DNA of 64,000 bases, taken from contig CAJXNO010000004.1 in NCBI GenBank assembly GCA_913057205.1, positions 1 to 64,000 of the forward strand, given 5' to 3'. Position numbers and translations under genes: made by a program. Shown here one piece after another: positions 22,147-43,974 of the stretch; position 1 is the first letter of the stretch; each line of letters starts with the position of its first letter. The notes below the pieces were generated by a model. The model was not told where the DNA came from and searched no databases. It saw nothing but the letters and a program-made list of their open reading frames with translations. Source of the DNA: an uncultured Flavobacteriales bacterium. Lineage in GTDB: Bacteria > Bacteroidota > Bacteroidia > Flavobacteriales_G > Salibacteraceae.

Positions 22147-22209
22147 AGTGCATAATTTGCTTCAAAGCTAAGGAATGGAGCGTGAAAGAGAGGGTTGGAA
22201 GTAGCTAAT

Positions 22210-22560
22210 CTAAGGAGCGACTTTTTGGATGGGCTTGCGCTCATCAATGCTACCGTCTTCGCTTTGTAAATGAAGCACGTAGCTGCCTTGGCTTAACAAG
22301 CGCATATTGATCGTATGCACACCGGGGTGGGTGATTTTATCCTTCAAAATCACTTTGCCGTTGGTGTCTTCAAGACTCAATGTCATCATCTGGAATTGAT
22401 CATCTGCGATGCGAATGTTAACAACAGAAGAAATAGGATTGGGATAGGCCGACAAGAAAATCTCCTTTTTCTCCTCTTTTTCGTCCTCCAAATAAGTTGG
22501 AAGAGAGTGAGCCTGAAACGCAACTAATGCGAGAGCTGTAATAATTGAAAGCTTTTTCAT
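22210..22560 (-). CDS. very short T9SS sorting-domain protein
   Basis: This 116-aa product starts at 22560 (MKKLSII); a longer frame exists but lacks a signal peptide at its beginning. After the signal peptide (cut near AHS-LPTY) comes an acidic linker DEKEEKKE, then a complete type A sorting domain: YPNPISSVVNIRI, LSLEDTNGKVILKD, INMRLLSQGSYVLHL. There is no passenger domain. Such proteins could be free T9SS substrates or remnants of larger genes. Confidence 0.75.
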   Translation of the reverse strand: MKKLSIITALALVAFQAHSLPTYLEDEKEEKKEIFLSAYPNPISSVVNIRIADDQFQMMTLSLEDTNGKVILKDKITHPGVHTINMRLLSQGSYVLHLQSEDGSIDERKPIQKVAP

Positions 22561-22729
22561 TTTGTACATGTCAAGAATACTATTCAGGTGCGAGTTCACA
22601 AAAGTTGTGGCTCGTATTTGATGAACAACTTTCGATTCCTTAGTGCATGACCAATCTCATGCGCTCACATGTTCACCGTTTGGTCATTTTGGTGGTGTAT
22701 TCACGAATACCATCCCGTCAATCAAGACG

Positions 22730-23632
22730 ATGGAAAACCGTGAAAACCTACTCAATACCATTTGGGAGTACCAAATGGCTCATGGACATCTAGACCAGCA
22801 CTTCTTCGAAGAGGCTTCCAAACGATTTGGGATCTCAGAAGTGGAGATTGAAGGTGTTGCGTCATTCTACCACTTCTTTCACCAAAAGCCTCAAGGAAAG
22901 CATGTGATCTACGTGAACAACAGCATCGTTTCGGAGATCAAGGGCTATGACCGCATCATAGAAGCATTTGAAAGGGAAACCGGAGCACGTCTCGGTTCTA
23001 CCGATCCAACAGGCACCTTCAGCCTGTATTCTACTTCATGTATTGGTCTCAGTGACCATGAACCTGCGGCATTGATCGACTTTCATCCATTCACCCATTT
23101 GACAGGGATGAAGGTCAAAAAGATCGTGCAGGAAATAAAAGCGGGCAGTACGTCGGCCGATTTAGCAGATGAGGTTCCTTCCAATCAACGATTACGACCA
23201 GCTTCCGACAAAGCGATTTTTTTCCGTGAGCATGTTCCTGGAAAGAGCCTTTCGCGCCTCTTTGATGTTACCCCAGACGCCTTCATTGGCATGCTCAAGG
23301 AATTTCGAAAGAAGTGCAAAGTGCTCGTTTCCGCAGGTGAATGCGCCATCTGGGGTGGTGTGCCCGCCATGCGCAATACCGTTCCCTTGGAGGAATGCTT
23401 GGAGGAAGCCTACCTGAACAGCGTAACCACGGATGAAGGAGAGGACAAGGTGCCTTACCAAGAAGACCTTCCCAAACTATTGGACAAGGTGTACGGAAAC
23501 CACGAATTGGTGAAGATCGATCACCATATTCCCGGGTGCCCGCCCTCTGCAGACGTCATCTGGAAATCGGTGGCGAACATCCTTTGGGATGAAGATCAGC
23601 CCCTGTTGTGCGACGAAGTAAAGTTTGACTGA
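22730..23632 (+). CDS. hoxF'-'hoxY in-frame fusion from a deleted hydrogenase operon
   Basis: This is a continuous 300-aa frame. Residues 1 to about 190 match the N-terminal NuoE-like part of HoxF (ASFYHFF, ERETGARLGSTDPTG, CIGLSDHEPAALID, FFREHVPGKSL) and stop just before the place where HoxF has its GRGGAGF FMN-binding loop. From about residue 191 the sequence is the second half of HoxY, the small hydrogenase subunit (SAGECAIWGGVPAMRN, HHIPGCPPSAD). Missing are the FMN, NADH and iron-sulphur parts of HoxF, the whole of HoxU, and the first half of HoxY with two proximal-cluster cysteines. The junction lies near 23295-23310. A functional diaphorase is impossible. hoxH starts 1 nt after the stop. 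Confidence 0.85.
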   Translation: MENRENLLNTIWEYQMAHGHLDQHFFEEASKRFGISEVEIEGVASFYHFFHQKPQGKHVIYVNNSIVSEIKGYDRIIEAFERETGARLGSTDPTGTFSLYSTSCIGLSDHEPAALIDFHPFTHLTGMKVKKIVQEIKAGSTSADLADEVPSNQRLRPASDKAIFFREHVPGKSLSRLFDVTPDAFIGMLKEFRKKCKVLVSAGECAIWGGVPAMRNTVPLEECLEEAYLNSVTTDEGEDKVPYQEDLPKLLDKVYGNHELVKIDHHIPGCPPSADVIWKSVANILWDEDQPLLCDEVKFD

Positions 23633-23633
23633 T

Positions 23634-25085
23634 ATGAAGAAAGTAGTGATCGAACCGGTAACGCGGGTAGAGGGACATGGAAAGGTGACCATTCATCTGA
23701 ATGATGAGGGGCAGGTAGACGATGCCTTTTTTCATATCGTGGAATTCCGTGGCTTTGATCGTTTCATTCAGGGTCATCCGTATTGGGAAGCCGACACACT
23801 TGTGCAACGGTTGTGCGGTATATGTCCGGTAAGCCATCACCTGGCGGCATCAAAGGCCATCGATCAACTCGTTGGAATTGACCCGGGAGATTTGAGTCCT
23901 ACCGCTGAAAAGCTCAGGCGATTACTTCATTATGCGCAGATGTTTCAATCGCATGCCCTGCACTTCTTCTACTTGGCGGCACCTGACCTCTTGTTTGGGC
24001 TGGATGCACCCGCAGAGCAACGAAACGTGGTGGGTGTAGCAACGGCCGACCGCGAAACGGCGCGGAAAGGAATCTTGATGCGAATATTTGGACAAGAGGT
24101 CATTCAGGCCATTGCAGGAAGAAAGATCCATGGTGTTGCAGCAGTTCCAGGTGGCGTACATAAGACCTTTCACCCCCATGAACGCGATCGCTTTTTGAAA
24201 GGAAGCGATGACCTGCCGAACATCGACACGATGATCGAATGGTCGAAGGAGATGGTAGACTACATCAAAGACTACCATGAGAAGAACCATGATTGGTTAG
24301 ACAGCTTTGCCTACTACCCATCTGGTCATATGGGGCTGGTGACCGATGAGGGTGCATTGGAACTCTATGATGGAAAGCTTCGTGCAGTAGACGCTGAGGG
24401 CAAGATCACCTTGCCCGACATCGAGAACGATCGCTATGCGGATTACTTCCGTGAGGGTGTGGAGAAATGGATCTACATGAAGTTCCCCTACATTAAATCT
24501 CTAGGCAGGGATAAAGGTTGGAACCGCGTAGGTCCGCTAGCTCGATTGAACGTAGCAGACAAGATCACCACTCCTTTGGCTCAGAAGGAGTTTGAGGTGT
24601 TCAAGATGCTCACAGAAGGAAAACCGAACAATGCCACGATGCACAGCCATTGGGCACGCTTGATCGAAGTACTGCATTGTGCAGAGCTCATGAAAGAGTT
24701 ATTAGACGATGAAACCATCTTAGGCAATGACCTGATTCGAAAAGGTACGCCAAGAAACGAGGGTATAGGTATCATAGAGGCCCCAAGAGGTACGCTTACC
24801 CACCATTATCAAGTGGATGATAACGGAAAGATTGAGAAGTGTAACCTCATCGTCTCTACCACGCACAACAATGAACCCATGAACCGGGCAGTACGTTGGG
24901 TGGCCAATAAGATATTCGAAGAGAACCAAACCATCACGGAGCCGATGCTCAACCAGATCGAGGTAGCCATCAGGGCGTATGATCCTTGTTTGAGTTGTGC
25001 CACCCACGCAATGGGACAAATGCCCTTGCACGTGGAACTATATGACAGCAGTAACCAATTGATCGATGAGCGTTTCAAACACTAA
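23634..25085 (+). CDS. hoxH: [NiFe] hydrogenase large subunit HoxH (group 3d)
   Basis: This 483-aa protein has the full large-subunit length. The N-terminal nickel motif RLCGICPVSHH and the C-terminal DPCLSCATHAMGQMPL are intact, so all four cysteine ligands of the NiFe site are present. The tail after ATH fits the peptide that an endopeptidase removes during maturation. The group 3d (soluble, NAD-linked, HoxFUYH) assignment follows from the neighbouring hoxF and hoxY pieces. The ATG at 23634 is 1 nt after the stop of the fusion gene. Without an intact HoxY, HoxU and HoxW, an active enzyme cannot be expected from this locus alone. Confidence 0.92.
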   Translation: MKKVVIEPVTRVEGHGKVTIHLNDEGQVDDAFFHIVEFRGFDRFIQGHPYWEADTLVQRLCGICPVSHHLAASKAIDQLVGIDPGDLSPTAEKLRRLLHYAQMFQSHALHFFYLAAPDLLFGLDAPAEQRNVVGVATADRETARKGILMRIFGQEVIQAIAGRKIHGVAAVPGGVHKTFHPHERDRFLKGSDDLPNIDTMIEWSKEMVDYIKDYHEKNHDWLDSFAYYPSGHMGLVTDEGALELYDGKLRAVDAEGKITLPDIENDRYADYFREGVEKWIYMKFPYIKSLGRDKGWNRVGPLARLNVADKITTPLAQKEFEVFKMLTEGKPNNATMHSHWARLIEVLHCAELMKELLDDETILGNDLIRKGTPRNEGIGIIEAPRGTLTHHYQVDDNGKIEKCNLIVSTTHNNEPMNRAVRWVANKIFEENQTITEPMLNQIEVAIRAYDPCLSCATHAMGQMPLHVELYDSSNQLIDERFKH

Positions 25086-25513
25086 GAATCGCCTCTTGTT
25101 GGCCATTGGAAACAGTGCGCGGCAAGACGATGGACTGGGCTGGGTCTTCGCGGAGCGCTTGGAGAAGGAAGGAGGTTTTGACGGTGAAATCCAATTTCGA
25201 TACCAACTACAGGTAGAAGATGCGGAGTTGATATCTTCCTATGATGAAGTGTATTTTGTGGATGCTTCAAAGGAAGGTAACGAGCAAGGCTATATCATAC
25301 GAACATGCGAAGCAGCCTTGGATACCAGTTTCTCCTCCCATGCCGTTTCACCTAACACGATCCTTTACTTGTGCAATGACCTTTATAACCGACATCCTTT
25401 AGGTCGTCATAGAAGGGGAGGAGTGGGGCCTGGAGATCGGCTTGAGTGCAAGCGCTACGAAGAACTTGAAAAGAGCGCTTGAAGCATTTTCGGAAGCGTT
25501 CGTTCACGTCTAA
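25066..25513 (+). pseudogene. hoxW: hydrogenase maturation protease hoxW, frameshifted
   Basis: The frame opens with LLLAIGNSARQDDGLGWVF and continues with YQLQVEDAELI and FSSHAVSPNTILYLCNDLYNR, typical of HoxW, the endopeptidase that trims HoxH. Near 25402 the frame is lost: one G too many in TTAGGTCG leads to a basic nonsense tail ending at 25482. In the next frame the true C terminus is readable from 25403 to the TAA at 25511-25513 (VVIEGEEWGLEIGLSASATK then NLKRALEAFSEAFVHV). The gene overlaps the hoxH end by 20 bp as in intact operons. Confidence 0.85.
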
Positions 25514-25520
25514 AAATGCA

Positions 25521-25548
25521 ACAGTCTCAGCGGTATCACTGAGACTGT
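25521..25548 (+). terminator. hairpin after the hydrogenase operon
   Basis: A perfect 10-bp stem (ACAGTCTCAG at 25521-25530 with CTGAGACTGT at 25539-25548) has an 8-nt loop and begins 8 bp after the readable hoxW stop. The T tract on the + side is poor, but on the minus strand it is followed by TTTTT, so it may act in either direction. Confidence 0.55.
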
Positions 25549-25560
25549 CGTGTATATAGA

Positions 25561-25579
25561 CATGCTAATCCGTAGCATG
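25561..25579 (-). other. small hairpin at the end of a putative short gene
   Basis: CATGCTA and TAGCATG form a 7-bp stem with a 5-nt loop. It lies 10 bp beyond the stop of the possible minus-strand small ORF at 25589-25729. Confidence 0.3.
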
Positions 25580-25588
25580 AGGATTGTA

Positions 25589-25729
25589 TCATTGGTGCGT
25601 GCGAAGCGCTGGTGGCTTTTTCACCTCCGGTGATGCTTGTTCCGGATCCATGGCTTGTCTACCTAGTACAAGCTGGATCAGTTCACCGATGTGTCGCGTT
25701 GGTAGTATGTTCTTTTTTACTTGGTTCAT
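25589..25729 (-). CDS. possible small protein of 46 residues
   Basis: An ATG-started frame (MNQVKKNILPTRHIGELIQL and onward to ALRTHQ) lies in the gap between hoxW and the next lipoprotein gene. It has two possible helices and no recognisable family. It is the only open frame of reasonable composition in the gap and is listed tentatively. Confidence 0.25.
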   Translation of the reverse strand: MNQVKKNILPTRHIGELIQLVLGRQAMDPEQASPEVKKPPALRTHQ

Positions 25730-25743
25730 GGTGTCTCAAATAA

Positions 25744-25772
25744 GCCCGCCAGTCATCCGCCGACCGGCGGGC
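25744..25772. repeat. GC-rich hairpin in intergenic gap
   Basis: GCCCGCC (25744-25750) and GGCGGGC (25766-25772) form a 7-bp stem. The core resembles the GTCCGCC...GGCGGAC hairpins at 51075-51091 and 51140-51156, so this may be a dispersed short palindromic repeat of the genome. Confidence 0.4.
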
Positions 25773-25798
25773 ATCCTCCATCCGCTAGCGATCCGCTG

Positions 25799-26488
25799 CT
25801 AGCCTTCGAATGTGAATGTTAGTTCTCGTTTTTCATGTGGTGTTATATAGATCGAGTCGTAGATTACTGTATCGAAGTTAGGAGCGCTGAGATTCCAACT
25901 TAGCTTTGTTGCGCCGGACGGTAATAGTTGCTCAAAACTGCTGGTATACTCTTCCTCAGCGTCTAGAACCTCATAATAAGCACGATGCTCATATTTACTT
26001 CCTATGGCAGTAAGATCAAATTCTAAGGAGTCAATCTCACTGTTGTTTCTTGCAGTGATCAAGTAGCTCCCGTAGGAAACCAACGGAAGTACCATCGATT
26101 GCTCAATTCCAGGTTGAACCCACGACTCTTCATGTACTTTTTCGAACTCATCTCGATGCCAAAGGTGATTGAAGAACATTCCATCTTGGGTCAGGGCTTT
26201 GACCAAATAGAGCCCTCTCTGATTCTTAAGGTCCTCCTGGAGGAAGAACCTTCCTTCGCTATCGGTCGTTGTCTCAGCAATGAGTGTGTAGCCCACGGAG
26301 CTGAATGGGGCTGCTCCAAGTTCTTCCTCTAAAAGTACGACTGGAATACCTTCAACGTAGCTTTCGCTGCTTTGGTCAATGACGACCCCGTGGATGATGG
26401 TCTCCTTTCTGAGGAATGAACAGGATGTCAACACACCAAAGCAACTTATCGCGATAGCGCTTTTCATTAGATGTTTCCTGGTTTTCAT
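25799..26488 (-). CDS. lipoprotein with carboxypeptidase-regulatory-like domain
   Basis: This 229-aa protein has the lipoprotein signal GVLTSC. Residues 30-125 look like a transthyretin-like beta sandwich (IIHGVVIDQSSESYVEGIPVVLLEE, TTTDSEGRFFLQEDL), a fold common in Bacteroidota envelope proteins. The ending (EKRELTFTFEG) is beta-rich. The start codon overlaps the stop of the 975-aa hydrolase gene by 4 bp, so the two are translationally coupled and probably work at the same surface. Confidence 0.7.
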   Translation of the reverse strand: MKTRKHLMKSAIAISCFGVLTSCSFLRKETIIHGVVIDQSSESYVEGIPVVLLEEELGAAPFSSVGYTLIAETTTDSEGRFFLQEDLKNQRGLYLVKALTQDGMFFNHLWHRDEFEKVHEESWVQPGIEQSMVLPLVSYGSYLITARNNSEIDSLEFDLTAIGSKYEHRAYYEVLDAEEEYTSSFEQLLPSGATKLSWNLSAPNFDTVIYDSIYITPHEKRELTFTFEG

Positions 26489-29412
26489 AGTTTTATGACT
26501 TTAGTTGAATAAATGGTTTGATTAGATTTTTCATCTAAGACATTGATGAAGAATAATCCACTAGAATGCTCCAACGTTAATTGAGTAGACCCTTCACTGT
26601 AGCTTGTCGTTAGTAATCTTCCGGTGAGGTCTCGGACCTCCACTCGATAAGGATAGTTATCAGGAGCTTCGAGCCTGAGTATCCCTTGGGTTGGATTTGG
26701 AAACACAGCGAATGCGTTGATCAATGACTCATGCTCTACCTTATTCGATGGGGTAATTGCATTCGCGTGGTAATCTCTTTTTGAATCCAAGAGTTGGATA
26801 CAATCCACGTTCAGAGGAGCTTCCGACTTCATGACCAAAGAAGCGCCTTCCATAATGTGCACTCCATCTCTAACCTTGACTCTCGGAGCTCGATAGAGCG
26901 CTTTCGTGTTTTCGCCGAGAATCACCTCTCCTATTCGTACACTTTGGGTTACGCTAGAACCAATCGTTAAGGACTCTCGCGCTTCGATAAGTGATTCATA
27001 TTCTACGGGAAGACTTGAAAAGTTCTTTTTCTGAATGAAACGTTCGAATGGTGCTACCTCATCTAATATGAAGGATGCAAGATCTGATCCTGGATTTTGG
27101 TTGTGTAAAGTATTCTTTTGATTTGCGAAGCATGCATCGAAAGGTGTCTTGGCGTAAGGATATTGTTCATTAGGGTTATTATGCGGATAACCTTTGGACT
27201 CGTTGGGATCGAACTCACCAGACTCGAGAAAGAATAAATTCTCAAAACAGTTATACCCATAATCCAACGAATAATCATCCTGTACATCAAATACCGATGT
27301 GGTAGGCACAAATGGCGCTCGATAATCGGGTACTTTACAACCCTTCAATCCATATTTAGCCACACCGAGCACAAATTTCTTGTAGAAGCGCTCATAAGCC
27401 GCAGGTGCATCATATTCTGCTTTGGGGTAGATTTTCTTTACGTTCTTTAATGCTGATCCTACCGATGCACCCCTGATGGTGAACCAGCCTCTGAATATTG
27501 TTTTTGACTGGAGCAGTTCGCCTGTATTGATTCTGACTCGGAGCTTTCCTTTTACAATCGGGATGTAACCAAATAGGTCCATCAAACAGGTGTTCAAGGC
27601 GTTTCCATTTGCATCGCGATCAAGTCCAAGAGGCCTTTCAACCGTAGAGCTGCCATCTGCAATCGCCACCCGTCGAACGTGCTGTGGATAACCAAGTTCA
27701 TCCATTTGAGCGAATAGGGCCAGGTATTTAGGATGCCTGTAAAGTATAGGGTCGTTAGCCTGGTCATTCATGGAGACGTGGTAGGTCAAGATCGATTGCG
27801 CTGCGGGATTGTTAAGTGCTTCATCGAAAAGAAAGACATCTATAAACTGCTGAAAAGCGTTTGCAACCTGAATGTTTTGAAACCATGAAAGAACTATGTG
27901 TTCCGGTACTTCGCTGGTTAGGAACTTCGCATAGAGCTGAATACCCATAGGAATGGTTGCCCCCTGCATTTCTCCTTCCCAATTGATCCAAGTGCGACAT
28001 TCATGGTGAACAAAAGGAGAACTATTGGCGGCCATGCGTTCTTTTTCCCAGCGTGCTAAGGCTATGCGTGATGAGATGCCTCCCATGCTTTGTCCCATCA
28101 AGATGTTCTCATGCATGCTGCCGTTGTTGTCTTTTTCCTGATTAACCAACTCAATGAGCCGCATGACTGCTGCAGCGTGATTCTGAGGATAATCAACGCC
28201 GTTCAGGAATTCCAAGATGATGATGTCATACCCCTCGTTTCTCAGCTTGTAGAGTAGGTTGGTTCCATTCGGCATACCCCTCGTGGCTTTGGTTTCAGCA
28301 TCCAAACCCAAAATCCCATTGAAGTGACTGTACAGGTTCTTGGTTGGCTCATCAGACCAGATGTTCTTTTTCCCGATGTCAGGACCGTAGCCAGTAACGA
28401 TGATGAAGGGCTTGTCTACCACACATGGGTCCCCGCATCCAAACCAGATGCCAGCTCTTGCTTCAACCATACCAAAGTCATTCTTCTCATTTTCTATGAC
28501 CTCTGGCACGTTTACATTCAAATGAGCTTGTGGTAGCTCTACGTATTGAATGCCATCATTTACAATGATTCCATCACCGCAGTCGTTCTCAATGATAATG
28601 GCCTTGACCCTAGTCACGAATAAGCCTTTCACTTGCTTATATCCTCGGTTGACGTAGTTGACCATCATCGTGAGCTCGTGTTCACCGGGCTCAGGATAGT
28701 ACACCGAATAGCTTTGCCCAATGATCAAGTTCACAAATCCGTTGCCGTCTCCGAAGTCTACTGCGATGTGATCGATGTGGTCGTCAAGGTTGGTGTAGAT
28801 GTGCTCCAAACTGAAGTTGAAGGTTACCCAGCCATCTGTAGCGATGTCAGAGAGCAGTGGTAACATCACGAAGGTGTTCTTTTGCTCCAGCATGTTGAAA
28901 GGATCCTTTCCACCCTGAAACTTCACTTGGTAGCCATCCCAGAAGATGTCGCCGTTGTCTTTTGCGTCTTGCTTGATCTCTTCGTAATCATAGTCGCAGA
29001 CCCCAACGATCACCTCGCCGGTCGCTTCATAGTGTGCTCCCACTTCCTTGTGGATATCGAACAGTGATTTAATCTCATCTGGGTAGGGCACACGTGCGTC
29101 TTCCATTTCTGCTCGGATCAGGTAGAAGTCATCCTTATTCGCAACAACATCCAGATTCTGACCATCGAACTGCTCTCTTCTGGTCACGTTCGGGTTGCGA
29201 TCCGCTAGGATATCGGTTGACATGAACTGGTCTACATGCTTGAAATTGTAATCCAAGATTTCACCGTATGTCTGCAGGTGTCTGGGCGCTGGCAGGGTAG
29301 TGTCTGGCCCCCAGTAGCTGATGTCTTTTTGGGCTAGGCTTACGCTCCCTTGGATGCAAAGCAGCATAAGCGTTAGCACGATCGAAAGTTGCTCAATCCG
29401 TAACATGGTCAT
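26485..29412 (-). CDS. large T9SS-exported alpha/beta-hydrolase-like protein
   Basis: This 975-aa protein has a signal peptide (cut near SLA-QKD). Residues about 50-320 lack a known fold. An alpha/beta-hydrolase-like domain follows: FIIVTGYGPDI, YDIIILEFLNGVDYPQNHA, and the nucleophile elbow ILMGQSMGGISS with Ser near 440. The last ~80 residues are a T9SS sorting domain (VFPNPTQGILRL to VIKL). It is probably a surface-attached or released esterase or lipase. It overlaps genes on both sides by 4 bp, forming a three-gene unit with the tail-fibre-like and lipoprotein genes. Confidence 0.75.
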   Translation of the reverse strand: MTMLRIEQLSIVLTLMLLCIQGSVSLAQKDISYWGPDTTLPAPRHLQTYGEILDYNFKHVDQFMSTDILADRNPNVTRREQFDGQNLDVVANKDDFYLIRAEMEDARVPYPDEIKSLFDIHKEVGAHYEATGEVIVGVCDYDYEEIKQDAKDNGDIFWDGYQVKFQGGKDPFNMLEQKNTFVMLPLLSDIATDGWVTFNFSLEHIYTNLDDHIDHIAVDFGDGNGFVNLIIGQSYSVYYPEPGEHELTMMVNYVNRGYKQVKGLFVTRVKAIIIENDCGDGIIVNDGIQYVELPQAHLNVNVPEVIENEKNDFGMVEARAGIWFGCGDPCVVDKPFIIVTGYGPDIGKKNIWSDEPTKNLYSHFNGILGLDAETKATRGMPNGTNLLYKLRNEGYDIIILEFLNGVDYPQNHAAAVMRLIELVNQEKDNNGSMHENILMGQSMGGISSRIALARWEKERMAANSSPFVHHECRTWINWEGEMQGATIPMGIQLYAKFLTSEVPEHIVLSWFQNIQVANAFQQFIDVFLFDEALNNPAAQSILTYHVSMNDQANDPILYRHPKYLALFAQMDELGYPQHVRRVAIADGSSTVERPLGLDRDANGNALNTCLMDLFGYIPIVKGKLRVRINTGELLQSKTIFRGWFTIRGASVGSALKNVKKIYPKAEYDAPAAYERFYKKFVLGVAKYGLKGCKVPDYRAPFVPTTSVFDVQDDYSLDYGYNCFENLFFLESGEFDPNESKGYPHNNPNEQYPYAKTPFDACFANQKNTLHNQNPGSDLASFILDEVAPFERFIQKKNFSSLPVEYESLIEARESLTIGSSVTQSVRIGEVILGENTKALYRAPRVKVRDGVHIMEGASLVMKSEAPLNVDCIQLLDSKRDYHANAITPSNKVEHESLINAFAVFPNPTQGILRLEAPDNYPYRVEVRDLTGRLLTTSYSEGSTQLTLEHSSGLFFINVLDEKSNQTIYSTKVIKL

Positions 29413-30437
29413 TCAGCTTTTTGAGATTCAACTTTCTTGAGACGCTCCTCTAGATCAAGGATGTAAAGCAAGGTCTCTTCTTGTTTTTCTAACAGCAAGC
29501 GAGAGAGCTCTCCCACTTCGATGCCGCCCTTATCTGCATATTCTTGCGCCGATGGAATGTTCGGCAAGTGCTTATGCTGGGCGATGTATGCCTTCAATTG
29601 ATCCAATGGCATCAATGGATACTGCTCATCGAATACATAGTCTGGAATGGCTTCATTCACGTCGACCAAGATTTCTCGAGCAACCACATATCCATCGTCG
29701 TTTACCTCGAAGTTATTTTGGGTTCCGTTGCCTACTACGAGTCGTCCTTCTGATACGCGCAAGTCGCCATCACTGATGCGGAGGTCACCGTCACCAATCA
29801 CCAGCTTAGCATTTGGATTGGCTACACCAATACCGACGTTTCCATTCGATTTAATTACCAATGCGTCTTCTGTGCTGCCTTGAGCCGAGATCCCTGTGAT
29901 GAATTCAATTCCGCCTCCAGAACGAGCTACAATGGCTGACCCAATATTGTTGTTACCAACGGCCGTCCATTGGTTTGCAGAAGCATCATATCTACTCGCG
30001 AAGGATAGGGTGGCGGTTGAGCCATTCATCCCACCATTTGAACGAGCTATAATGTCCTCGGTCAAGTAAGCCTCGTCTGTGGTCAACATGACTTCATCCT
30101 CATTCATTTTCATGACCTCGTTGAAATTGCCGTTGTTGACCTTGAACTTGAAGCTAAGATCCTGCGAGGCGTCGATGTCCCAATAATGTGTGGTTGGGTT
30201 GATGCTTCCTATCAAGGTGGTTGAGAACCGCATCCCTGGAGGGGTTGCAGGTGGACAACTGATGCAGGTTGGTTGATTCGGGGAATAGCTACTACTGATC
30301 TCCAATCGCTCTGATGGCGTGCTGGTGCCGATGCCTACATTGTTGCCGTTGATGGTGTTGTTACCGCTGCTGTAGAGCTGAGCGGACGCGGTAAGGCTAA
30401 AAAGAACCGCTGCAGCCGTCATATATATAGTTTTCAT
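29409..30437 (-). CDS. exported fibre-like protein with C-terminal coiled coil
   Basis: This 342-aa product starts at 30437 (MKTIYMTAAA, signal peptide cut at SA-QLY). The segment NGNNVGIGTSTPSERLEIS and later NVGIGVANPNAKLVIGDGDL are the GIGT..P..L repeats of phage-tail-fibre-like Bacteroidota proteins. The end (PDYVFDEQYPLMPLDQLKAY, HLPNIPSAQEYADKGGIEVG, then a leucine-rich coiled coil) is a conserved C-terminal block in this group, probably for trimerisation. It is the first gene of the unit with the hydrolase and lipoprotein genes, and divergent from a helix-turn-helix regulator. Confidence 0.75.
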   Translation of the reverse strand: MKTIYMTAAAVLFSLTASAQLYSSGNNTINGNNVGIGTSTPSERLEISSSYSPNQPTCISCPPATPPGMRFSTTLIGSINPTTHYWDIDASQDLSFKFKVNNGNFNEVMKMNEDEVMLTTDEAYLTEDIIARSNGGMNGSTATLSFASRYDASANQWTAVGNNNIGSAIVARSGGGIEFITGISAQGSTEDALVIKSNGNVGIGVANPNAKLVIGDGDLRISDGDLRVSEGRLVVGNGTQNNFEVNDDGYVVAREILVDVNEAIPDYVFDEQYPLMPLDQLKAYIAQHKHLPNIPSAQEYADKGGIEVGELSRLLLEKQEETLLYILDLEERLKKVESQKAE

Positions 30438-30678
30438 TGTATTTGGTTTTTTGATTACAAGCCAAACTTGGAACGAAAACATCGAGAGTTAAAACGGACT
30501 TCAGCGGTTGCTTTGAGTCTGTATTTCGGATTTCCGCAAGATGGAAACGATGCGAAGCAGGAACTTTTGCGTTTTTCGCAAATCGACGGATGAACGAATA
30601 AGAAAAAGTTCTAAATTGCTTCTACTACGTGAGAACCTCTACGGTTCCAGACCTTTTTTGAACCAAATAGTATGTGCT

Positions 30679-31725
30679 ATGGAAAATGGAAACATCATCA
30701 TCCAGCATCGCCTATTGGATGAAGTGAAGAAGATCATCGGTAGTTCTGATTATGTATCCGAGATCGCTGATGTGCTAGGATTGAGTCATGACAGCATTTA
30801 TCGAAGGTTGCGCGGGGAGACCTTGTTGAACATCGTAGAGGTGCAGAAACTGCTGATCGAATATGACCTTTCCTTGGATGATTTCTTGGACACCTCAGTA
30901 CGCAGGGTTTCGTTCAGTTTTCAGCCGATCAGAGAAGGTAGCTTCACCTTTGTAGACTACCTGACCTACATCGAACGGATGATGCGACGTGTAACGGAGA
31001 ATGAGAATCCACATATGCTCTACCTGGCTAAGGATATTCCGTTGTTTCAGTTGATGAATGCTCCTGCGCTAGCGGCTTTCAAGCTCTTCTTCTGGCGCAA
31101 GACCATCCTCGACTTCTCCAGCTATAAGCGAAAGCGCTTCAGTTTTAAAGAGCGCGATGAAAAGGTAGATGAAGTCTCCAGAAAGATCAGAGAACACTAT
31201 TATAAGGTGTCAGCAACAGAAATCTACAGCCCCGAAACGATCGATACTACTTTGAACGAAGTGCTGTATTATTTCCATGCTGGACTGTTTGAAGACATGT
31301 CTGACGCACTCGTTGTACTCGATAGCTTGGAGCAATTGGTCTACCATTTGAAGGCACAGTGTGAAGAGGAGTGTCGTTTCCGAATGAAGCGTTCAGAGGA
31401 AGAAGAGGAACCTGCGCATGTTCACTACCCGGGAGTTGAATACCGGGTTCTTTATAATGAAATCATTTTTACGGATGCAACTGTTTTGGTGAAACTCGAC
31501 AACGAAAAGTGGAGCTACTTGACCAATAATGGATTGAATGTACTTGGTACCCGGGATGAAAACTTCTATGATCAATGCTTTGATTCTTTCGATATCATTT
31601 CGAAACGGAGTACGCTAATCTCCGGTAATTCAGAAAAAGAACGTAGCCAGATATTCAATCGTTACATCAGTCGTATACAAGTGGTCAGAAAACGACTTCA
31701 GAATGAGACTGAGCAAGAGCTTTAA
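30679..31725 (+). CDS. helix-turn-helix regulator-like protein
   Basis: This 348-aa protein starts at 30679 (MENGNIII); the longer upstream frame has no conserved look. Residues 12-60 form an HTH (YVSEIADVLGLSHDSIYRRLRG), and the remaining ~280 residues are helical with many charged and aromatic residues. Proteins of this layout occur in Bacteroidota as putative transcription factors without a known ligand. It is divergent from the fibre/hydrolase/lipoprotein unit and could control it. Confidence 0.7.
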   Translation: MENGNIIIQHRLLDEVKKIIGSSDYVSEIADVLGLSHDSIYRRLRGETLLNIVEVQKLLIEYDLSLDDFLDTSVRRVSFSFQPIREGSFTFVDYLTYIERMMRRVTENENPHMLYLAKDIPLFQLMNAPALAAFKLFFWRKTILDFSSYKRKRFSFKERDEKVDEVSRKIREHYYKVSATEIYSPETIDTTLNEVLYYFHAGLFEDMSDALVVLDSLEQLVYHLKAQCEEECRFRMKRSEEEEEPAHVHYPGVEYRVLYNEIIFTDATVLVKLDNEKWSYLTNNGLNVLGTRDENFYDQCFDSFDIISKRSTLISGNSEKERSQIFNRYISRIQVVRKRLQNETEQEL

Positions 31726-32120
31726 ATTGAGCGACGGGATCCGGTTGGCACGAGTTTGACAATGATCCACGAAGCAACGAAGGCTTCTAGGATACTCAAC
31801 GGAACGGGATAAAGCAGGAGCTTAGTCGGTAGCACCAGCATGTTAGCCGTAACGAGCCACAACAATACGAAGCCCATGAACCAACCGATACTGGCGGTCT
31901 GTAATAGGGAGTATCTTCGTGAGATGATATAAAGGCCAATTGCGAAACATAGTGACCAAACACACTATATCATCCCATTGATGGGTTCTGAAGGAAATAT
32001 CAGGCTGAGTGAGGTATAATGATCTGTCCAAATGTGCTTGAACAAGAATTCATTCCGAAGGAACTCAGAGAGGCTGATCCAGAGCGTGGATACCAGAACA
32101 GCCACGATGCCCTTTTTCAT
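31722..32120 (-). pseudogene. four-helix membrane protein gene with one internal stop
   Basis: The frame from ATG 32120 to TAA 31722-31724 covers 132 codons and is broken only by TAG at 31965-31967. Before the stop is MKKGIVAVLVSTLWISLSEF with EPINGMI; after it the frame continues as CVWSLCFAIGLYIISRRYSL, GWFMGFVLLWLVTANMLVLP and LSILEAFVASWIIVKLVP, clearly membrane helices of one protein. The stop is best explained by Trp TGG changing to TAG. No family name is known to me. The final bases overlap the convergent regulator gene. Confidence 0.7.
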
Positions 32121-32126
32121 ATCGAA

Positions 32127-32491
32127 CTAATTTATCAGCCAATTTAATGCATCTTCTTCTTCGGAGGTAACTCTGATCGTCAAACCCCTATTCTGTGCTA
32201 TAGTTTCGTAAAACCTCGCATTTTGAAGGTATTTTTCATTGCAGATCACGGCAATTTTTGAACGAATTTGGCTTCTCGTGATGCAATCTCCGCCAGCTCA
32301 TAGGTATCCATGGTGGAGAGCTTGTACGCAAGATCACGCTCATCGCATAATACCAGCTTACATTGGTGTTCGATTGCTAGTCCGAGAATGGTCATACCAT
32401 AACGGTAAACATCTTCAATGCTATCATCAGAGCCTTGCGTTGTGATTTTCAATAGTTCACCCTCAAGCTTATGATCGAATGATATCGGCAT
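32127..32491 (-). pseudogene. STAS/SpoIIAA-like small protein gene, frameshifted
   Basis: The first frame (MPISFDHKLEGELLKITTQG, YRYGMTILGLAIEHQCKLVL, ELAEIASREAKF) stops early at 32246. The other frame continues without interruption to TAG 32127 (SKIAVICNEKYLQNARFYET, then NRGLTIRVTSEEEDALNWL), the expected C-terminal half of SpoIIAA-like/STAS-related proteins. A single missing base near 32260-32265 explains the break. The broken membrane gene begins 6 bp downstream, so the two probably formed an operon. Confidence 0.65.
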
Positions 32492-32553
32492 AGGTCTCGA
32501 AGGTAAGGGCGACAGCTAAGAAATGCTATGACCTTCGTCAACCTTGTACTTCA

Positions 32554-33444
32554 CTATGCCTTGATAAACGCTGTCTGGTTAGTCGTAATGAACGATTCGA
32601 TTGTTGTAGGCTGCTTTCCCGAAAGCATCTCGTAATTTGAACTGATCATTGGTGGGGCCTGGAGGCGCGGAAGGAAATGAAGCATGGTCATGACAAGTAC
32701 GAGCCCGGTCTCCACACCTTCTTGCTTCTTTTTCCAAAAGAACCGTATCGGGTCCAATGCGTTGAAATCAATGTTTCGCCCGAGAATCTTACTCATTCGT
32801 TCCAATACTACTGGAAAAGACAGGTTTTCATTGCCTGTTATGTCAAATGCCTTGTTGCGATGCACTTCGAAGTCATGGATGAGTGCTGCAGCTGCTTCTC
32901 CAACGTTGGCTGCATCTACCCAGTTGAACAGGGCGTTGCCCGACGGTAAGCTGACACGATCTTCGTTCTGAATTTCTTTGGCAAGTGTTTTGGTGAGGTT
33001 TTGCATGAAGTAGCTCGGACGCACGAAGATGAAGTCAAAGCCCCTTTTTCGGATATACGCCTCGATCTTATGATGGGGAATAATACTTCTCTTTTCCACA
33101 CCTTGAACGGAGAGGAAAACAATCCTCCTAATACCGCTGTCACAAGCTGAATCCAGTAGAGGGACAAAGACCTTTTTAACGTCCGAGATGTGGGGTGGAC
33201 GCAACAGAAATAAGATATCGATTCCATTAAAAGCATGCGAAAAGCTGTTGATGTCCTCAAAGTCAAACTTCCTAAGTTGTACCTGAGGATAGCGATTCAA
33301 GAGCTCTTTGGATGATTCGAGATCGCGTACTGCCGCTATCGATGCTAGTTCAGGATAACCCTCCTGCAGGTATCGAACCACTTCACGGCCGATGTTTCCA
33401 GTTGGGCCGGTGATCAGAATTTGGGTTTTGCTGCTTGGATTCAT
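32554..33444 (-). CDS. NmrA-like NAD(P)-binding protein
   Basis: This 296-aa Rossmann protein has the motif ITGPTGNIGREVVRYL (residues 10-25), the NADP-contact FDFEDINSFSHAFNGIDILFLL and the later IVFLSVQGVEK and VRPSYFMQNLT, as in NmrA/NAD(P)H azoreductase-like atypical SDRs. The catalytic Tyr/Lys pair of classical SDRs is not evident. With the neighbouring BVR-like gene and the divergent HxlR regulator it looks like a small stress- or quinone-response cluster, which is an inference. Confidence 0.8.
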   Translation of the reverse strand: MNPSSKTQILITGPTGNIGREVVRYLQEGYPELASIAAVRDLESSKELLNRYPQVQLRKFDFEDINSFSHAFNGIDILFLLRPPHISDVKKVFVPLLDSACDSGIRRIVFLSVQGVEKRSIIPHHKIEAYIRKRGFDFIFVRPSYFMQNLTKTLAKEIQNEDRVSLPSGNALFNWVDAANVGEAAAALIHDFEVHRNKAFDITGNENLSFPVVLERMSKILGRNIDFNALDPIRFFWKKKQEGVETGLVLVMTMLHFLPRLQAPPMISSNYEMLSGKQPTTIESFITTNQTAFIKA

Positions 33445-33491
33445 GGGATAATGGTGGTAGAATTATTCAAAGCGAATAGGAGAAGAAGGGA

Positions 33492-34124
33492 TCAATAGGT
33501 GACAAAGGGCATTTGTTCAATGTACTCCGTTTGATCCACTTGTTTCACGATGAAGTCTGCCAGATCCGCTCGTCCGATCGATGTGGATGCATTCACACCA
33601 ACCCATCCTACCCGGTAGCTTCCTTTTTCAGGTTCAGTAGTAAGACGAGGACCACGAACGATCGTCCATTTGAGACCGCTTTTCTTCAAAACCTCTGCGT
33701 GTGAGATAGCATCGTTTAATACCTTCGGAACAAAGATCTTCATGATCAAACGGATGAGGTGATCTGGCACCTTGGGTTGATCCTTTGAAGGGAAAGGAAG
33801 TCCGACACCGCTTAGAGAAATAATCCGATCAATACCTTCTGCCTTCATTGCGTTAACGATGTTTCTCCTTCCATTTGTTTGCAGTTCCTTGGGAGACCCT
33901 TTCACATGGCCAAACACGCTGATCACAGCTTTTGATCCTTTCACTACCGCTGCCACATCACTTGGATTCAAAACATCGCCTTTGGTAATCTCAAGTGCAT
34001 CGTTCTGCATCTTGAGTTTCAAAGGATCTCGAACAAGAACCTTTACCGTGTAACCTTTCCCTAGTAGTTTTCTGAGTACCTCTCGACCTGTTTGTCCTGT
34101 TGCCCCGAATAATGCTATTGTCAT
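33492..34124 (-). CDS. NAD(P)-binding oxidoreductase, BVR-B/SDR a5-like
   Basis: This 210-aa protein has the motif FGATGQTGREVLRKLL at the N terminus, NADP-contact VRDPLKLK, then ITKGDVLNPSDV, ISLSGVGLPF and WTIVRGPRLT. The architecture matches the biliverdin-reductase-B/NAD(P)H-binding atypical SDR group. The substrate is unknown. The gene is divergent from an HxlR-type regulator with a 77-bp shared promoter region, the usual arrangement for a target gene of such regulators. Confidence 0.82.
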   Translation of the reverse strand: MTIALFGATGQTGREVLRKLLGKGYTVKVLVRDPLKLKMQNDALEITKGDVLNPSDVAAVVKGSKAVISVFGHVKGSPKELQTNGRRNIVNAMKAEGIDRIISLSGVGLPFPSKDQPKVPDHLIRLIMKIFVPKVLNDAISHAEVLKKSGLKWTIVRGPRLTTEPEKGSYRVGWVGVNASTSIGRADLADFIVKQVDQTEYIEQMPFVTY

Positions 34125-34166
34125 CTCTTCTTGATTTTTAAGCGAATCTATCTATGTTTAGAGTAG

Positions 34167-34200
34167 CTTACAAATAATCAAGTACTAACAAAAAAGTAAG
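34167..34200. promoter_or_regulatory. candidate HxlR operator in the divergent promoter
   Basis: CTTAC (34167-34171) and GTAAG (34196-34200) form an outer inverted repeat, and TACT (34183-34186) with AGTA (34195-34198) an inner one. HxlR proteins often bind such TTAC/GTAA half-sites next to their own gene. The site ends 1 bp before the hxlR start codon. Confidence 0.35.
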
Positions 34201-34201
34201 T

Positions 34202-34549
34202 ATGAGTCAGAAAGACAAGTTAGCTTTTGGACCTCGGTGCCCGATCAGAACCACACTCGAGTTGGTGGGAGGGAAGTGGAAACTACTGATACTCCATACC
34301 TTGCGCGGTGGTTCATACCGACTATCGGAGCTCAACAAGCTAATCCCAGATATCTCTGAGAAGATGTTGATCCAAGAACTGAAGGTGCTTGCAGATCATG
34401 ACTTAGTGGTCCGTAAAAACCACGGGGAGGTACCGCCGCGTGTAGATTATCGATTAACCGAAAAAGGTAGCCTTGCTTTGCCGTTGGTGGCATCGATGAA
34501 GGAGTTCGCTGATGCATATACTGCCATGCACCATGCCGCTCAAGGCTAG
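34202..34549 (+). CDS. HxlR-family transcriptional regulator
   Basis: This 115-aa winged-helix protein has FGPRCPIRTTLELVGGKWKL (the conserved Cys13 found in redox-sensing HxlR members), the recognition-helix region YRLSELNKLIPDISEKMLIQ, and the wing VPPRVDYRLTEKG. Members sense electrophiles, aldehydes or quinones by this N-terminal cysteine. It is divergent from the SDR-like gene, which it probably controls together with itself. Confidence 0.92.
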   Translation: MSQKDKLAFGPRCPIRTTLELVGGKWKLLILHTLRGGSYRLSELNKLIPDISEKMLIQELKVLADHDLVVRKNHGEVPPRVDYRLTEKGSLALPLVASMKEFADAYTAMHHAAQG

Positions 34550-34577
34550 GTAATCCTTACATAACAGTGCTTCACCC

Positions 34578-37500
34578 TTATTTCAAAATGAGTTTCGATC
34601 GATAGGCTTCCTGTCCGTCACTCAATTGAATTGAATACACGCCTTTGGCGAGCCCAGATAAGTCCACGCTGTTCAAACCGCTTTGCATCGCTTGTGCGTG
34701 CACCAACTTTCCTGTTGCATCGTACAGCTTCATGCTGAATCCGTGGTGGTCTTTCATTTCCACTGTTGTCCAACCGCTACTGGGGTTGGGGTAGAGCGAT
34801 ATACCGATGGCATTCCACTCTTGTACGCCAATCATGGTATGCATGAAGTCATCAGATCGATCTGAACGACATCCATCCTCGATCGCTTCCACTGAATAGG
34901 AACCGCTGCTTTGCGCCAAGATTGACTGCGTGGTGTCCGGTAAAAGGATGACGTCTATGAACCATGCATAGGAGTTTGCCAGCACATTTGCCATCAGGCT
35001 GTCGTTGCCAAGGTCAACGATCTGTGGAGTCAATGGTTTTGGAATCACGCTCCAGATCAGGGTGTCCGTATAACCTTGGCACCCAATAGAATCCGTTATC
35101 AATGCGAATACATCATTTCCGTCGCTAATGGCGGTGGTAATAAAGGTAGAGTCAGGTCCAGATTGAATGCTTGTTCCATTCACGAAGAAGCTATAGTCTG
35201 TGAGTCCGGCAGGCACCTCAAAAGCCACGCTATCACCTTCGCATATTTCCAATTCAGGTTCGCTGGTCCAAAGCACCGTGTTGTTCCAGTTCGGTTGCAC
35301 CTGGAGGCGGATCACATCGCTTATTGAAGCGCATTGCGGGTTTACGAAGTTTTCAACCCAAACGCTATCGCCGTCTGATACACTTAGGGCGGTCCAAGTG
35401 TTTGCATTGCTAGATTGAACCAAAACATTGTTTAAGTAGAAGTCATAGGTACTACCCACTCCGTTTGCTTCGAAGTGCACCGAATCACCGTAGCAGAAGG
35501 TGTTGTTCTGCGTACCTGTCGTTAAACTAGGACCGTTAAAAACACCCACGTAAAATAGGTCTTCGATCAGTAAGGTATCCGCGCCATAGGCGTTGTTTGC
35601 TATGAGCTGTACATCATACCACCCTGTGTCATTCGGTTGGATGCTTGGACTTGTGCTGTTCAGGTTTCCATTGATCAAGCTGTAACTCGTTGGCGCAATC
35701 GACCAAGTGTAGCTTGTGCCATAAGTGGTTTCATTGATGAGCTGAACATCCTGACCCAGACAGAACGTATCGTACGTGGTGTGAAAGGCCACACTCGGCT
35801 TACTCGTTATATTGATATCATCGATTGCGAGGTCTGCAAGCCAACCGCCACCCGTCGTTCCGCGGAAGCGAACAACAACCTCTTGTCCCTCAAATGCTGC
35901 TAGGGAAGCCGTGCGTTGCAGCCATTGATTACCCTGCTGACCCAGAACGGGGTCAGCTACATCCAAATGCCACTGTCCATCAGCCAGCACATCCATATGC
36001 AGTGAACCAATCGCACTGCCATAGGCGTGATACCAGTAAGAGATTTCAGGCTCATTCGAACCAATTAGATCGAAACATGGGGAGTGCAGCTGTGCTTCTT
36101 TCCATTGGCATCCCGACCCACTGTTGCCACTTCCTTCCAGGTAAAGGTAGTTTCCGTTCCCGCTGGTATGATCACCAGACGGTCCCGTACCTCCAGATCC
36201 AGTTGCCCCGCTGTGGGTCCTCCAGTCTATGCTGTCAGAGCCATTAATGTTAGCCAAGTTGAGCCATCCTTGAGACAAGTTACAAGTAATCGATGCGCAG
36301 CCCCAAGCCGTAGAGCAGTTCGTGAAATTGTCGAAGTCCTGCGTGTAAGGAAGGGTTGCTGAGCTGCTGCCGTAGTGGGTCAACGTCAGAATAATCGTGT
36401 CATTCGTAGCGTTGCTGTCTCCTGGGTAGGCACACCATACCTTCAAGGTGTTTGTTCCGGATTGAAGCACAACGGCGGAAGAGTCTGTGAAAACCGTTTG
36501 ATACGCAGATGAAAGGGTCGTAAATAGCGTGTCATGTTGTATGGCTTGCGTATTTACCTGAAAACCAACGGGTAGGGAGTTTAAATTCGTCGTGCCAGTG
36601 TTTTGAAGCCTGACCTTCAGGTTTAGGGAGTCGCCGATGAAGCAAGAAGGGAAGAAGGTGCTGCTTGGACTAATGATTTCTGTTAAGGCAAGGTCAATAC
36701 CAACGCAATTGAGATCGCCAGGCTGAATTGGAATTGCAATCGCTCTGCGACTGGAACCACTATCTGGTAGCACTGCTTGAACCGTAACCCACTCTGTTTC
36801 TGAGTTAGAGAGGTTATGAAACTTAAAGAGTGGATCGGTAGTAAATGTAACCGTATCCATAAACTCAGCACCAAGTTTATACACGCGGTATCCGAGTACT
36901 CCCGGAATGCTGTCCCAGGCCAACATAGCCGAATCAGCACACCTCCAGACTACATGTAGATTCTGTGGGACTTCGGAGATGGTGAAGGTTTGCCCACTTG
37001 TACCGGTTTCAACCCCATCTGATACCCGGATCAGGCATTTTCCGGAGATGTTATTTGGAACCTGCCAAGTAAATGTTCGCAGTTCGCTAGAGACGTTGCT
37101 GGCAACCGACTGCCATGTTGATCCGCTGTCTGACGAGAATTCGATCGTGAAATTGTTCGTGCCTTCTGGAGCATCCCATCGAATCCTCCTTGTCTCATTC
37201 GGAACCAATCCTTCGCCTCCGTAAGGATAAACAACAGTGATGGAATCATATACGAAGCTGTAAATTACGTGATAGAGTTCTGCTCCTAAAGGGATGAGCG
37301 ATCCTTGAACCTGTGCTGTGTAGGTTCCGGCTGCTGGGTCATCAATGGTTACGAGTTCTACGTTGTTTAAGGTATCTGTTCCTTGAACTGCCGGGAGATC
37401 AAGGCTGTCTGGGTGTGGAAAGGTGTTGAGCACCCATGGTTGATGCCAAGCATTGCTTGGATCCTGTACCTGAAGATCCATGTCATTCACCAAGGTCTTC

Positions 37501-39095
37501 CCATAGTTTCCTGCAGTAGATTCTCTATCTGTCCAGTACAAGCTCACTTTCAATTGCTTCACACCACTTGGTACCGTAATCGTATGGTTGTTTGTTCCGT
37601 TGTTCGCAATCGTGGAGGAAATGAACTGATCATTCACAATCACCTCGTTTGCACGTTTTGCATTCACACGTCCAAACCCTGTTTTAAAGTCAGGACCAGG
37701 GTTATTGATGTCATCAGCTGTATTGAGGATGATGCCTTTGATCAGACCGGAGTTTGGCCATTGGTTGTTATTCTCATTGCGATAAGACTGGGTTAAGATC
37801 GCATTCACGCCTGCTAGGTTTGGTGATGCATGTGAGGTGCCACCGGGGCCCGTAGCCGTGATGTCTGGAAGGATCCGTCCATCCATCGCTGGACCAATAC
37901 TGCTGAAACCGGTCAGCTGATCATTGGTATTCATCGCACCCACTGCAAATATGTTTTTGGCGGATTTTACCAAGCCGGTGATGCTTCCCCAGGGTGCCCC
38001 TGCTCCATAGCTTGCGCAGCTAGAACCTCCGATATTCCCGCAAGAGTAGGTGATCATGAAGCGGTTGTAATTGTAGACCAAAAAGTCATTCAGAGCTGAG
38101 CCTGAATTGTAGTTGGGCCCGGCTGCAGGTATACAACCGTACCCGAAGGAGTTGTTGACGATGTTAACGTTGTTCTGAGCTGCTGTATTAAAGTTGATCC
38201 CTCCCGACATCAATTCAGCTCCCCAGGCTTGTCCGCGGTGTATCGGGTTGATGTTTCCAGCCGAAGCCATCCGCCAGCTTACACCGGTTTTATGTCCGCT
38301 AACATTTCCCGCCTCCAGCGAGCGATCAATGCGGTTCTTGAAGTCTGGGTCGTACAAGGTATCCACGATTCCACCTTCGTTTACGGCTATGGTAACCCCT
38401 GCGCCGCTCACCCCATTGAGGTTGTAATAGCCATTGATGAACGGGGCACGTGTAAGTGTCATTTCATCTTCAAGCTCCAGTTCTGCCGGTGGCTCAGGAA
38501 GCTCAAGATAGATCACGAAGGGCAGCATAGCCGCCTCTATCAAAGCAGGTAACTCACCAGAGACCTCTATGATTCCTAGCGGGTCAAATCCACCATCAAC
38601 AGCCAGTCCATGTGTACGGAGTTGATTTTTGAATCCGGTGAGATCGTTGGTTTTAGCTGTTGTAATGATGCCTTTGATACCGTTTGATGCAATGGCATAT
38701 CCGGGTATATCGTCAATCAGCAACCTAGGATCCATTCTTCGATGCCTAGGCTTGTTCCACACCTTCACAATACCGACTTCAGCCAGTTGCTCGGTTGTGA
38801 TTGAAGCGGGTAAGGCGGTGAACCACTTGAGGTCAGGTTCGTACTGGTAACGCTCGATGCTGAGCTCGGTCATACGAGCTTCCTGAGCTACACTTGGAAC
38901 GGCTTCAAACCTTGCAAAGGCCCATATTATTTCGTTAGCGCTTGCCTTTGATTGCTTCGCTTTGATCTGCTGCCACTGTTCCTCTAAGGTGAGTCCATTC
39001 AACCGTTCTTTATCCTGAGCGAACACAGCAACAGGTGAACCTAAAAGAAGTAATAAATACAGCAGAAGAAGTAGGCGTTGAATCATACGATGCAC
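34578..39095 (-). CDS. T9SS-exported subtilisin-like (S8) protease, multidomain
   Basis: This 1505-aa protein has a signal peptide (cut near VFA-QDK) and a prodomain region to about residue 215. The S8 domain (about 225-500) has NGVSGAGVTIAVNEGG, SGHKTGVSW (His268), IVNNSFGY (oxyanion Asn) and PGGTSHASPNLAG (Ser421). At the place of the catalytic Asp the sequence reads VNEGG, so Glu240 stands where Asp is expected. C-terminal parts include a beta-sandwich near 500-600, a fibronectin-like segment, a MAM-like domain (about 915-1090), Ig-like repeats and a T9SS sorting domain (LYPNPSSGWTTVEM to KLILK). It is probably a secreted or surface protease. Confidence 0.85.
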   Translation of the reverse strand: MHRMIQRLLLLLYLLLLLGSPVAVFAQDKERLNGLTLEEQWQQIKAKQSKASANEIIWAFARFEAVPSVAQEARMTELSIERYQYEPDLKWFTALPASITTEQLAEVGIVKVWNKPRHRRMDPRLLIDDIPGYAIASNGIKGIITTAKTNDLTGFKNQLRTHGLAVDGGFDPLGIIEVSGELPALIEAAMLPFVIYLELPEPPAELELEDEMTLTRAPFINGYYNLNGVSGAGVTIAVNEGGIVDTLYDPDFKNRIDRSLEAGNVSGHKTGVSWRMASAGNINPIHRGQAWGAELMSGGINFNTAAQNNVNIVNNSFGYGCIPAAGPNYNSGSALNDFLVYNYNRFMITYSCGNIGGSSCASYGAGAPWGSITGLVKSAKNIFAVGAMNTNDQLTGFSSIGPAMDGRILPDITATGPGGTSHASPNLAGVNAILTQSYRNENNNQWPNSGLIKGIILNTADDINNPGPDFKTGFGRVNAKRANEVIVNDQFISSTIANNGTNNHTITVPSGVKQLKVSLYWTDRESTAGNYGKTLVNDMDLQVQDPSNAWHQPWVLNTFPHPDSLDLPAVQGTDTLNNVELVTIDDPAAGTYTAQVQGSLIPLGAELYHVIYSFVYDSITVVYPYGGEGLVPNETRRIRWDAPEGTNNFTIEFSSDSGSTWQSVASNVSSELRTFTWQVPNNISGKCLIRVSDGVETGTSGQTFTISEVPQNLHVVWRCADSAMLAWDSIPGVLGYRVYKLGAEFMDTVTFTTDPLFKFHNLSNSETEWVTVQAVLPDSGSSRRAIAIPIQPGDLNCVGIDLALTEIISPSSTFFPSCFIGDSLNLKVRLQNTGTTNLNSLPVGFQVNTQAIQHDTLFTTLSSAYQTVFTDSSAVVLQSGTNTLKVWCAYPGDSNATNDTIILTLTHYGSSSATLPYTQDFDNFTNCSTAWGCASITCNLSQGWLNLANINGSDSIDWRTHSGATGSGGTGPSGDHTSGNGNYLYLEGSGNSGSGCQWKEAQLHSPCFDLIGSNEPEISYWYHAYGSAIGSLHMDVLADGQWHLDVADPVLGQQGNQWLQRTASLAAFEGQEVVVRFRGTTGGGWLADLAIDDINITSKPSVAFHTTYDTFCLGQDVQLINETTYGTSYTWSIAPTSYSLINGNLNSTSPSIQPNDTGWYDVQLIANNAYGADTLLIEDLFYVGVFNGPSLTTGTQNNTFCYGDSVHFEANGVGSTYDFYLNNVLVQSSNANTWTALSVSDGDSVWVENFVNPQCASISDVIRLQVQPNWNNTVLWTSEPELEICEGDSVAFEVPAGLTDYSFFVNGTSIQSGPDSTFITTAISDGNDVFALITDSIGCQGYTDTLIWSVIPKPLTPQIVDLGNDSLMANVLANSYAWFIDVILLPDTTQSILAQSSGSYSVEAIEDGCRSDRSDDFMHTMIGVQEWNAIGISLYPNPSSGWTTVEMKDHHGFSMKLYDATGKLVHAQAMQSGLNSVDLSGLAKGVYSIQLSDGQEAYRSKLILK

Positions 39096-39170
39096 TTTGC
39101 GTCGAAAATAACCAATGACCTTGACTTTTAGTTATCTGAAATAGAAGGCAACCGACTGAAAAATATAGTG

Positions 39171-39704: not shown

Positions 39705-39727
39705 GCGACGAATATAAGAGGATGGAG

Positions 39728-40201: not shown

Positions 40202-40227
40202 TAAGTTAGATAGGTACAGCAGAAGAG

Positions 40228-40266
40228 AAAAAAAGTACCGAGAAGGCTTCAAGCCTTCTCGGTACT
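40228..40266 (-). terminator. strong intrinsic terminator after the TRL-like gene
   Basis: AGTACCGAGAAGGCTT (40234-40249) and AAGCCTTCTCGGTACT (40251-40266) are perfect complements over 16 bp. On the minus strand they are followed by seven T. It begins 9 bp after the stop of the gene at 40275. Confidence 0.92.
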
Positions 40267-40274
40267 GACGAATC

Positions 40275-42367: not shown

Positions 42368-42522
42368 GATGCTTTATTTGGTAGATACTCAGGTTTTCTT
42401 TTGTTCACTTTACGCGGATGCGTATGATCGGCGAAAATAAGGAGTTGAGGATTCTCAATCCGAAGGGAGTTGGATTCTTTGCTGGGTGATGGATGCTCAA
42501 CCTAAGTTGATGTTGTTTGGCG

Positions 42523-43077: not shown

Positions 43078-43136
43078 TGTAGTCACATTTGATGTAAAAA
43101 TACACCAAAAATGCATCAGCATGAAATTTCTTTCTT

Positions 43137-43275: not shown

Positions 43276-43280
43276 GTTAT

Positions 43281-43823: not shown

Positions 43824-43833
43824 TCTTATTAAT

Positions 43834-43970: not shown

Positions 43971-43974
43971 GTTT

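Follow-up and report, generated by a model that had tools for sequence, protein, structure and literature searches.

A probable decaying remnant of a group 3d [NiFe] hydrogenase operon with an in-frame join of hoxF to hoxUY in an uncultured Flavobacteriales bacterium

HoxW is the protease that trims HoxH, and the active-site iron depends on HypD for its ligands. The intact Bacteroidota hox operon used for comparison was that of a Saprospiraceae MAG (L021, JABDMH010000136.1); upstream of it, on the opposite strand, lie genes that resemble hypA, hypB, hypF and hypD. Among the closest described systems is HoxFUYH, the NAD-reducing [NiFe] hydrogenase of group 3d (PDB 5xf9). Ordinary Hox enzymes, and no fusion of the kind reported below, are described in passages of PMC3368242 and PMC10892978. 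No paper on a HoxF-HoxY fusion came up in the literature search, and a search on fusion phrases for HoxUY returned no match for the genes described here.

Relatives were taken as the best 80 of 242 species-genome loci encoding a HoxH relative. The gene order in these loci was hoxF, hoxUY, hoxH, hoxW, with hoxU and hoxY forming one open frame in 75/75 measurable loci (five loci were without the region). HoxUY of this clade is about 424-433 aa long (e.g. L021:6696-7982 and 74 further loci among L021-L100); in a distant hydrogenase type (G016, G208 and others) HoxY is encoded by a separate gene of about 183-194 aa.

The window analyzed here is a stretch of 64,000 nucleotides from the genome of the bacterium (G000; 2.83 Mb, 68 contigs, 99.94% complete). 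The hox features of the window are listed below.

22730..23284, forward strand: NuoE-like N-terminal part of HoxF, about residues 1-185 of the fusion (PF01257; L021 HoxF match)
23285..23290, forward strand: putative deletion join of hoxF and hoxUY (overlap of the ends of the two L021 matches)
23285..23632, forward strand: last 115 residues of HoxY (HoxUY parent), including the stop codon (L021 HoxUY match; C-terminal half of Oxidored_q6)
23634..25085, forward strand: hoxH, open frame of 483 aa (74% identical to L021 and L022; Cys 61, 64, 452 and 455; C-terminal extension)
25066..25482, forward strand: first frame of hoxW, 138 aa, with the wrong C-terminus (TIGR00072 hydrogenase maturation protease, 48.5 bits; L021 HoxW match to 25398)
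25399..25402, forward strand: place of the hoxW frameshift (a second HoxW match starts at 25403 in the next frame)
25403..25513, forward strand: C-terminal remainder of hoxW, out of frame (L021 HoxW residues 127-160, E 2.8e-05; stop codon present)

Positions 22730-23632 were read as a single open frame of 300 aa, with an ATG at 22730 and a stop codon ending at 23632; a GTG at 22643 provides an alternative, longer start. Pfam returned 2Fe-2S_thioredx (PF01257, NuoE-like) at E 4.9e-30 and Oxidored_q6 at E 1.3e-14, the latter at profile positions 57-126 of 128, its C-terminal half. L021 HoxF residues 8-194 were aligned to 22730-23290 at 51% identity, where the match ends, and L021 HoxUY residues 314-428 (the end of the protein) to 23285-23629 at 74% identity; in a PDB search the parts of the fused frame matched chains A and C of 5xf9. 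The open frame, the Pfam hits and the L021 matches bear out the original prediction of a NuoE-like HoxF start joined to a HoxY end, with the join slightly left of the place given there (about 23295-23310). Residues 1 to about 187 are the start of HoxF and residues from about 187 to 300 the last two thirds of HoxY. As had been claimed, the NADH/FMN part is gone: HoxF ends at about residue 194-195, the whole of HoxU is absent, and the first third of HoxY is lost with its CxxC.

The NuoE-like part of HoxF in the relatives had one conserved Cys (66/66), and the partner position of NuoE was a Cys in 1/66. The four-cysteine [2Fe-2S] site of NuoE is thus already missing from HoxF of these relatives (n=66), and because the partner Cys is so rare the parental HoxF part was probably without a NuoE-type cluster. 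The HoxY-type C205 and C270 are retained in the fusion, and these, together with the CxxC, are HoxY Fe-S ligands. As the CxxC is missing from the fusion, no complete Fe-S cluster site is left; the loss of most Fe-S clusters had been rightly foreseen, and its extent understated.

At 90% coverage, 66 of the 80 loci gave matches to both parts of the fusion. The stretch matching the gap was 2080-2231 nt in 60 of them, 2487 nt in one and 4105-4155 nt in five, the long intervals being probably due to a second, upstream HoxF match found at several loci, mostly of Lutibacter. In the Lutibacter loci L044, L048, L056 and L088 (about 2930-4700), hoxF is preceded in tandem by another full-length hoxF-like gene, open for 570-576 codons. 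With hoxU and hoxY already united in the nearest relatives, the join can be explained by a single deletion, between hoxF and hoxUY. Comparison of the sequences supports hoxF-hoxUY-hoxH-hoxW as the parent operon, from which one deletion would have removed the HoxU part together with the end of hoxF on one side of it and the first third of HoxY on the other. The 2080-2231 nt intervals agree with the deletion of roughly 2 kb that had been proposed; of the order hoxF-U-Y-H-W assumed with it, the succession of H and W held, but separate U and Y genes did not.

The hoxH gene comes next, beginning at 23634. Its product matched chain D of 5xf9 over its length (E 7.6e-151) and still includes a C-terminal extension past the end of the mature chain. 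All four active-site cysteines (61, 64, 452 and 455) are kept, so that both CxxC motifs are present; each of the four was found in 80/80 relatives. An intact-looking hoxH at normal spacing had been described, and the open frame and cysteines agree with this. It is the one large-subunit gene in the whole genome.

A lesion absent from the original prediction was found in hoxW. At the frameshift site the window has 4 nt against four residues (12 nt) in relatives, whose spacing was read by eye. Among 78 loci with a HoxW match, hoxW was open for 139-162 codons from the start of the match in 77; the single exception, L081, stops after 6 codons. Frameshift and join are both directly observed in the assembled sequence.

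Maturation genes and a second hydrogenase had been named as points to check. No match was found in the genome to HypD, the HypF zinc finger or HypA, these three forming the search set, and there was no second NiFe hydrogenase; within the window itself Hyp searches returned chance-level matches only (E 0.35-0.92). HypD was present in 7/8 other genomes with a P0001 match, the exception being G394, which is hox-bearing and fragmented. These missing matches are a direct result of the search; given the requirement for HypD in forming the iron ligands, HoxH should stay inactive, and with HypD, HypF, HypA and a second NiFe hydrogenase all missing it should not be matured. Among the features of a functional group 3d enzyme, the CxxC motifs of HoxH were present, and a whole HoxY, the HoxFU diaphorase, an unbroken HoxW and the Hyp proteins searched for (HypD, HypF and HypA) were not.

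The location of the operon was compared with that in congeners, and two further features were defined.

22147..50580, no strand assigned: stretch of about 28.4 kb holding the hox remnant, absent between the same neighbors in congeners (congener comparison)
48557..49750, reverse strand: tyrosine integrase gene, near the right end of the 28.4-kb stretch (PF00589, E 1.3e-44)

The left neighbors, encoding glycine cleavage T protein, a WD40 protein and pterin dehydratase, were found in the same order in G006, G009, G011, G001 and G003; the contig of G007 is short and covers just the WD40 and dehydratase genes. Immediately after the dehydratase gene, G006, G011 and G003 have a small gene and then putative ispE; in G001 about 2.4 kb separates the dehydratase gene from this pair, and in G009 and G007 other genes lie to its right. 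In the window the pair, putatively thioesterase-like and ispE, is displaced by 28.4 kb, to about 50580-52216. The stretch is therefore missing at the same place in G006, G011, G003 and G001, a placing that is read directly from the contigs. To the right of this dehydratase gene, the six congener stretches contained no remnants of hox. No direct or inverted repeats of at least 10 nt were found between the end regions of the stretch in the parts compared, no tRNA genes were found in the window, and in G+C the hox stretch was similar to its flanks. Secretion tails are present on subtilase-type and multicopper oxidase proteins that are also encoded in the 28.4 kb. Homologs of three window genes (26485-29412, 29409-30482 and 30541-31725) occur in G009, which has no hox genes (L134, G009:C1:767000-786900), where they are close to the same dehydratase gene, in inverted order; the region is thus variable in the genus. 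No hox genes were found in the 12 congeners (0/12), and among the 42 genomes of the order G016 is the one other genome with hox, of the distant type with HoxH 58.6% identical. Absence from the congeners and rarity in the order make lateral gain likelier than many losses, and from this we infer that the operon was probably acquired laterally.

Constraint on the remaining frames was assessed against the relatives. HoxH of the window breached four near-invariant sites, the top rank of 81 in a tie with two others, and its end branch (0.41) was the longest of 86 tree rows (median 0.077), a length that may reflect just the absence of sampled close kin. The HoxY part was the most diverged relative to HoxH among 67 sequences, and the divergence of the HoxF part was unremarkable (rank 12 of 67). 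By sequence comparison, then, HoxH and the HoxY part show weak signs of relaxed constraint and the HoxF part shows none. A stop codon results from about 4% of single substitutions in the fusion and hoxH, and after some 70 unconstrained substitutions over the 2355 nt, counting substitutions only, the probability that both frames stay open is 5%. As both are open, most of the divergence should have arisen under constraint, and either decay is recent or some constraint persists. In the same tree HoxH of three gammaproteobacterial MAGs (L082, L089 and L099) nests in the Bacteroidota group, through either lateral transfer or a binning error.

What the locus holds is most likely a group 3d NAD-linked [NiFe] hydrogenase operon in decay, probably laterally acquired, whose join is in frame by chance. 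Against intact relatives the same operon carries two independent disabling lesions, the 2.1-kb deletion and the hoxW frameshift, and these, the missing HypD, HypF and HypA, the lack of displaced parts, the absence of hox from congeners and the weak signs of relaxed constraint all count for decay. Against it count the open fusion and hoxH, the four catalytic cysteines kept, the HoxF part that is not unusually diverged, and G394, also hox-bearing but fragmented, which shows no HypD either. In the sequence of events that we infer, a member of the Bacteroidota would have gained hoxF-hoxUY-hoxH-hoxW laterally, into the variable 28-kb stretch; with a host devoid of Hyp maturation proteins the operon would have been unable to yield active enzyme; a single deletion of about 2.1 kb would have brought the beginning of hoxF up against the last part of hoxUY, with one chance in three of staying in frame and no need for a special cause; an indel would have broken hoxW; and hoxH would remain open because little time has elapsed. 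Of the readings offered in the original prediction, that of a very recent deletion comes closest, recent decay being backed by the hoxW lesion and the missing HypD, HypF and HypA.

An assembly error, in which the organism has intact hoxF and hoxUY and the assembler joined the two ends, is improbable. The assembly is a draft of 68 contigs and the join is in frame, both of which would suit such an error; however, when L021 HoxF and HoxUY were used as queries against all contigs, no displaced copy of the deleted parts, and hence of the missing 2.1 kb, was found on any other contig, and the hoxW lesion and missing Hyp proteins would be left unexplained. The similar LxxF sequence said to be shared by both parents at the join proved weak, since the longest exact stretch common to the breakpoint neighborhoods was 5-9 nt (66 relatives); with at most 9 nt shared there is no repeat such as a collapse would need. 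Nothing found favors the collapse that had been suggested, which is less likely than decay.

It is very unlikely that a domesticated protein, kept for a non-hydrogenase role, is represented by the HoxF'-HoxY' fusion, either alone or with HoxH. The fusion is open and in frame, and hoxH, also open and with its catalytic cysteines kept, lies at normal spacing from it, which would suit such a protein, but the adjacent hoxW is broken, the HoxY part has the weakest conservation of 67, and the search for identical fusions in other genomes, which had been proposed as a check, found none besides this genome: fused hoxF-hoxUY occurred in 0/80 loci (the best 80 of 242, both parts being placed in 66), in 1/42 genomes of the order and in 1/395 of each of the overlapping class and phylum samples, the one being this genome every time. 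The proposed new role thus received no positive support. There is a similarly slight chance that the fusion and unmatured HoxH are retained in a complex that is non-catalytic, does not depend on Hyp maturation and has taken on a new role. A minimal working hydrogenase of HoxH and shortened HoxY, functional without the diaphorase part, is scarcely credible even with HoxH open and its cysteines kept, as the first third of HoxY including the CxxC is deleted, HypD, HypF and HypA were not found and the protease gene hoxW is broken.

On the best reading, decay, the case amounts to ordinary genome decay, a snapshot of a hydrogenase operon dying where the host lacks the maturation genes for it. Surveys based on large subunits alone should accordingly not take a complete-looking hoxH by itself as evidence of hydrogen metabolism. 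Compared with HoxFUYH of PDB 5xf9, HoxH corresponds to chain D and the fusion parts to chains A and C, but the deletion here has taken away the whole of HoxU along with the NADH/FMN part of HoxF and the opening third of HoxY, hoxW is frameshifted, and HypD, HypF and HypA were not found. Gene order is the same as in L021, to which HoxH and the HoxY part are 74% and the HoxF part 51-52% identical; in L021, however, hoxF and hoxUY are whole and hoxW is open. The locus resembles pseudogenized operon remnants in genomic islands in its several lesions, its missing partner genes and its variable genomic place with an integrase gene, and differs from them in that a fused gene, by chance in frame, is what its first lesion left behind.
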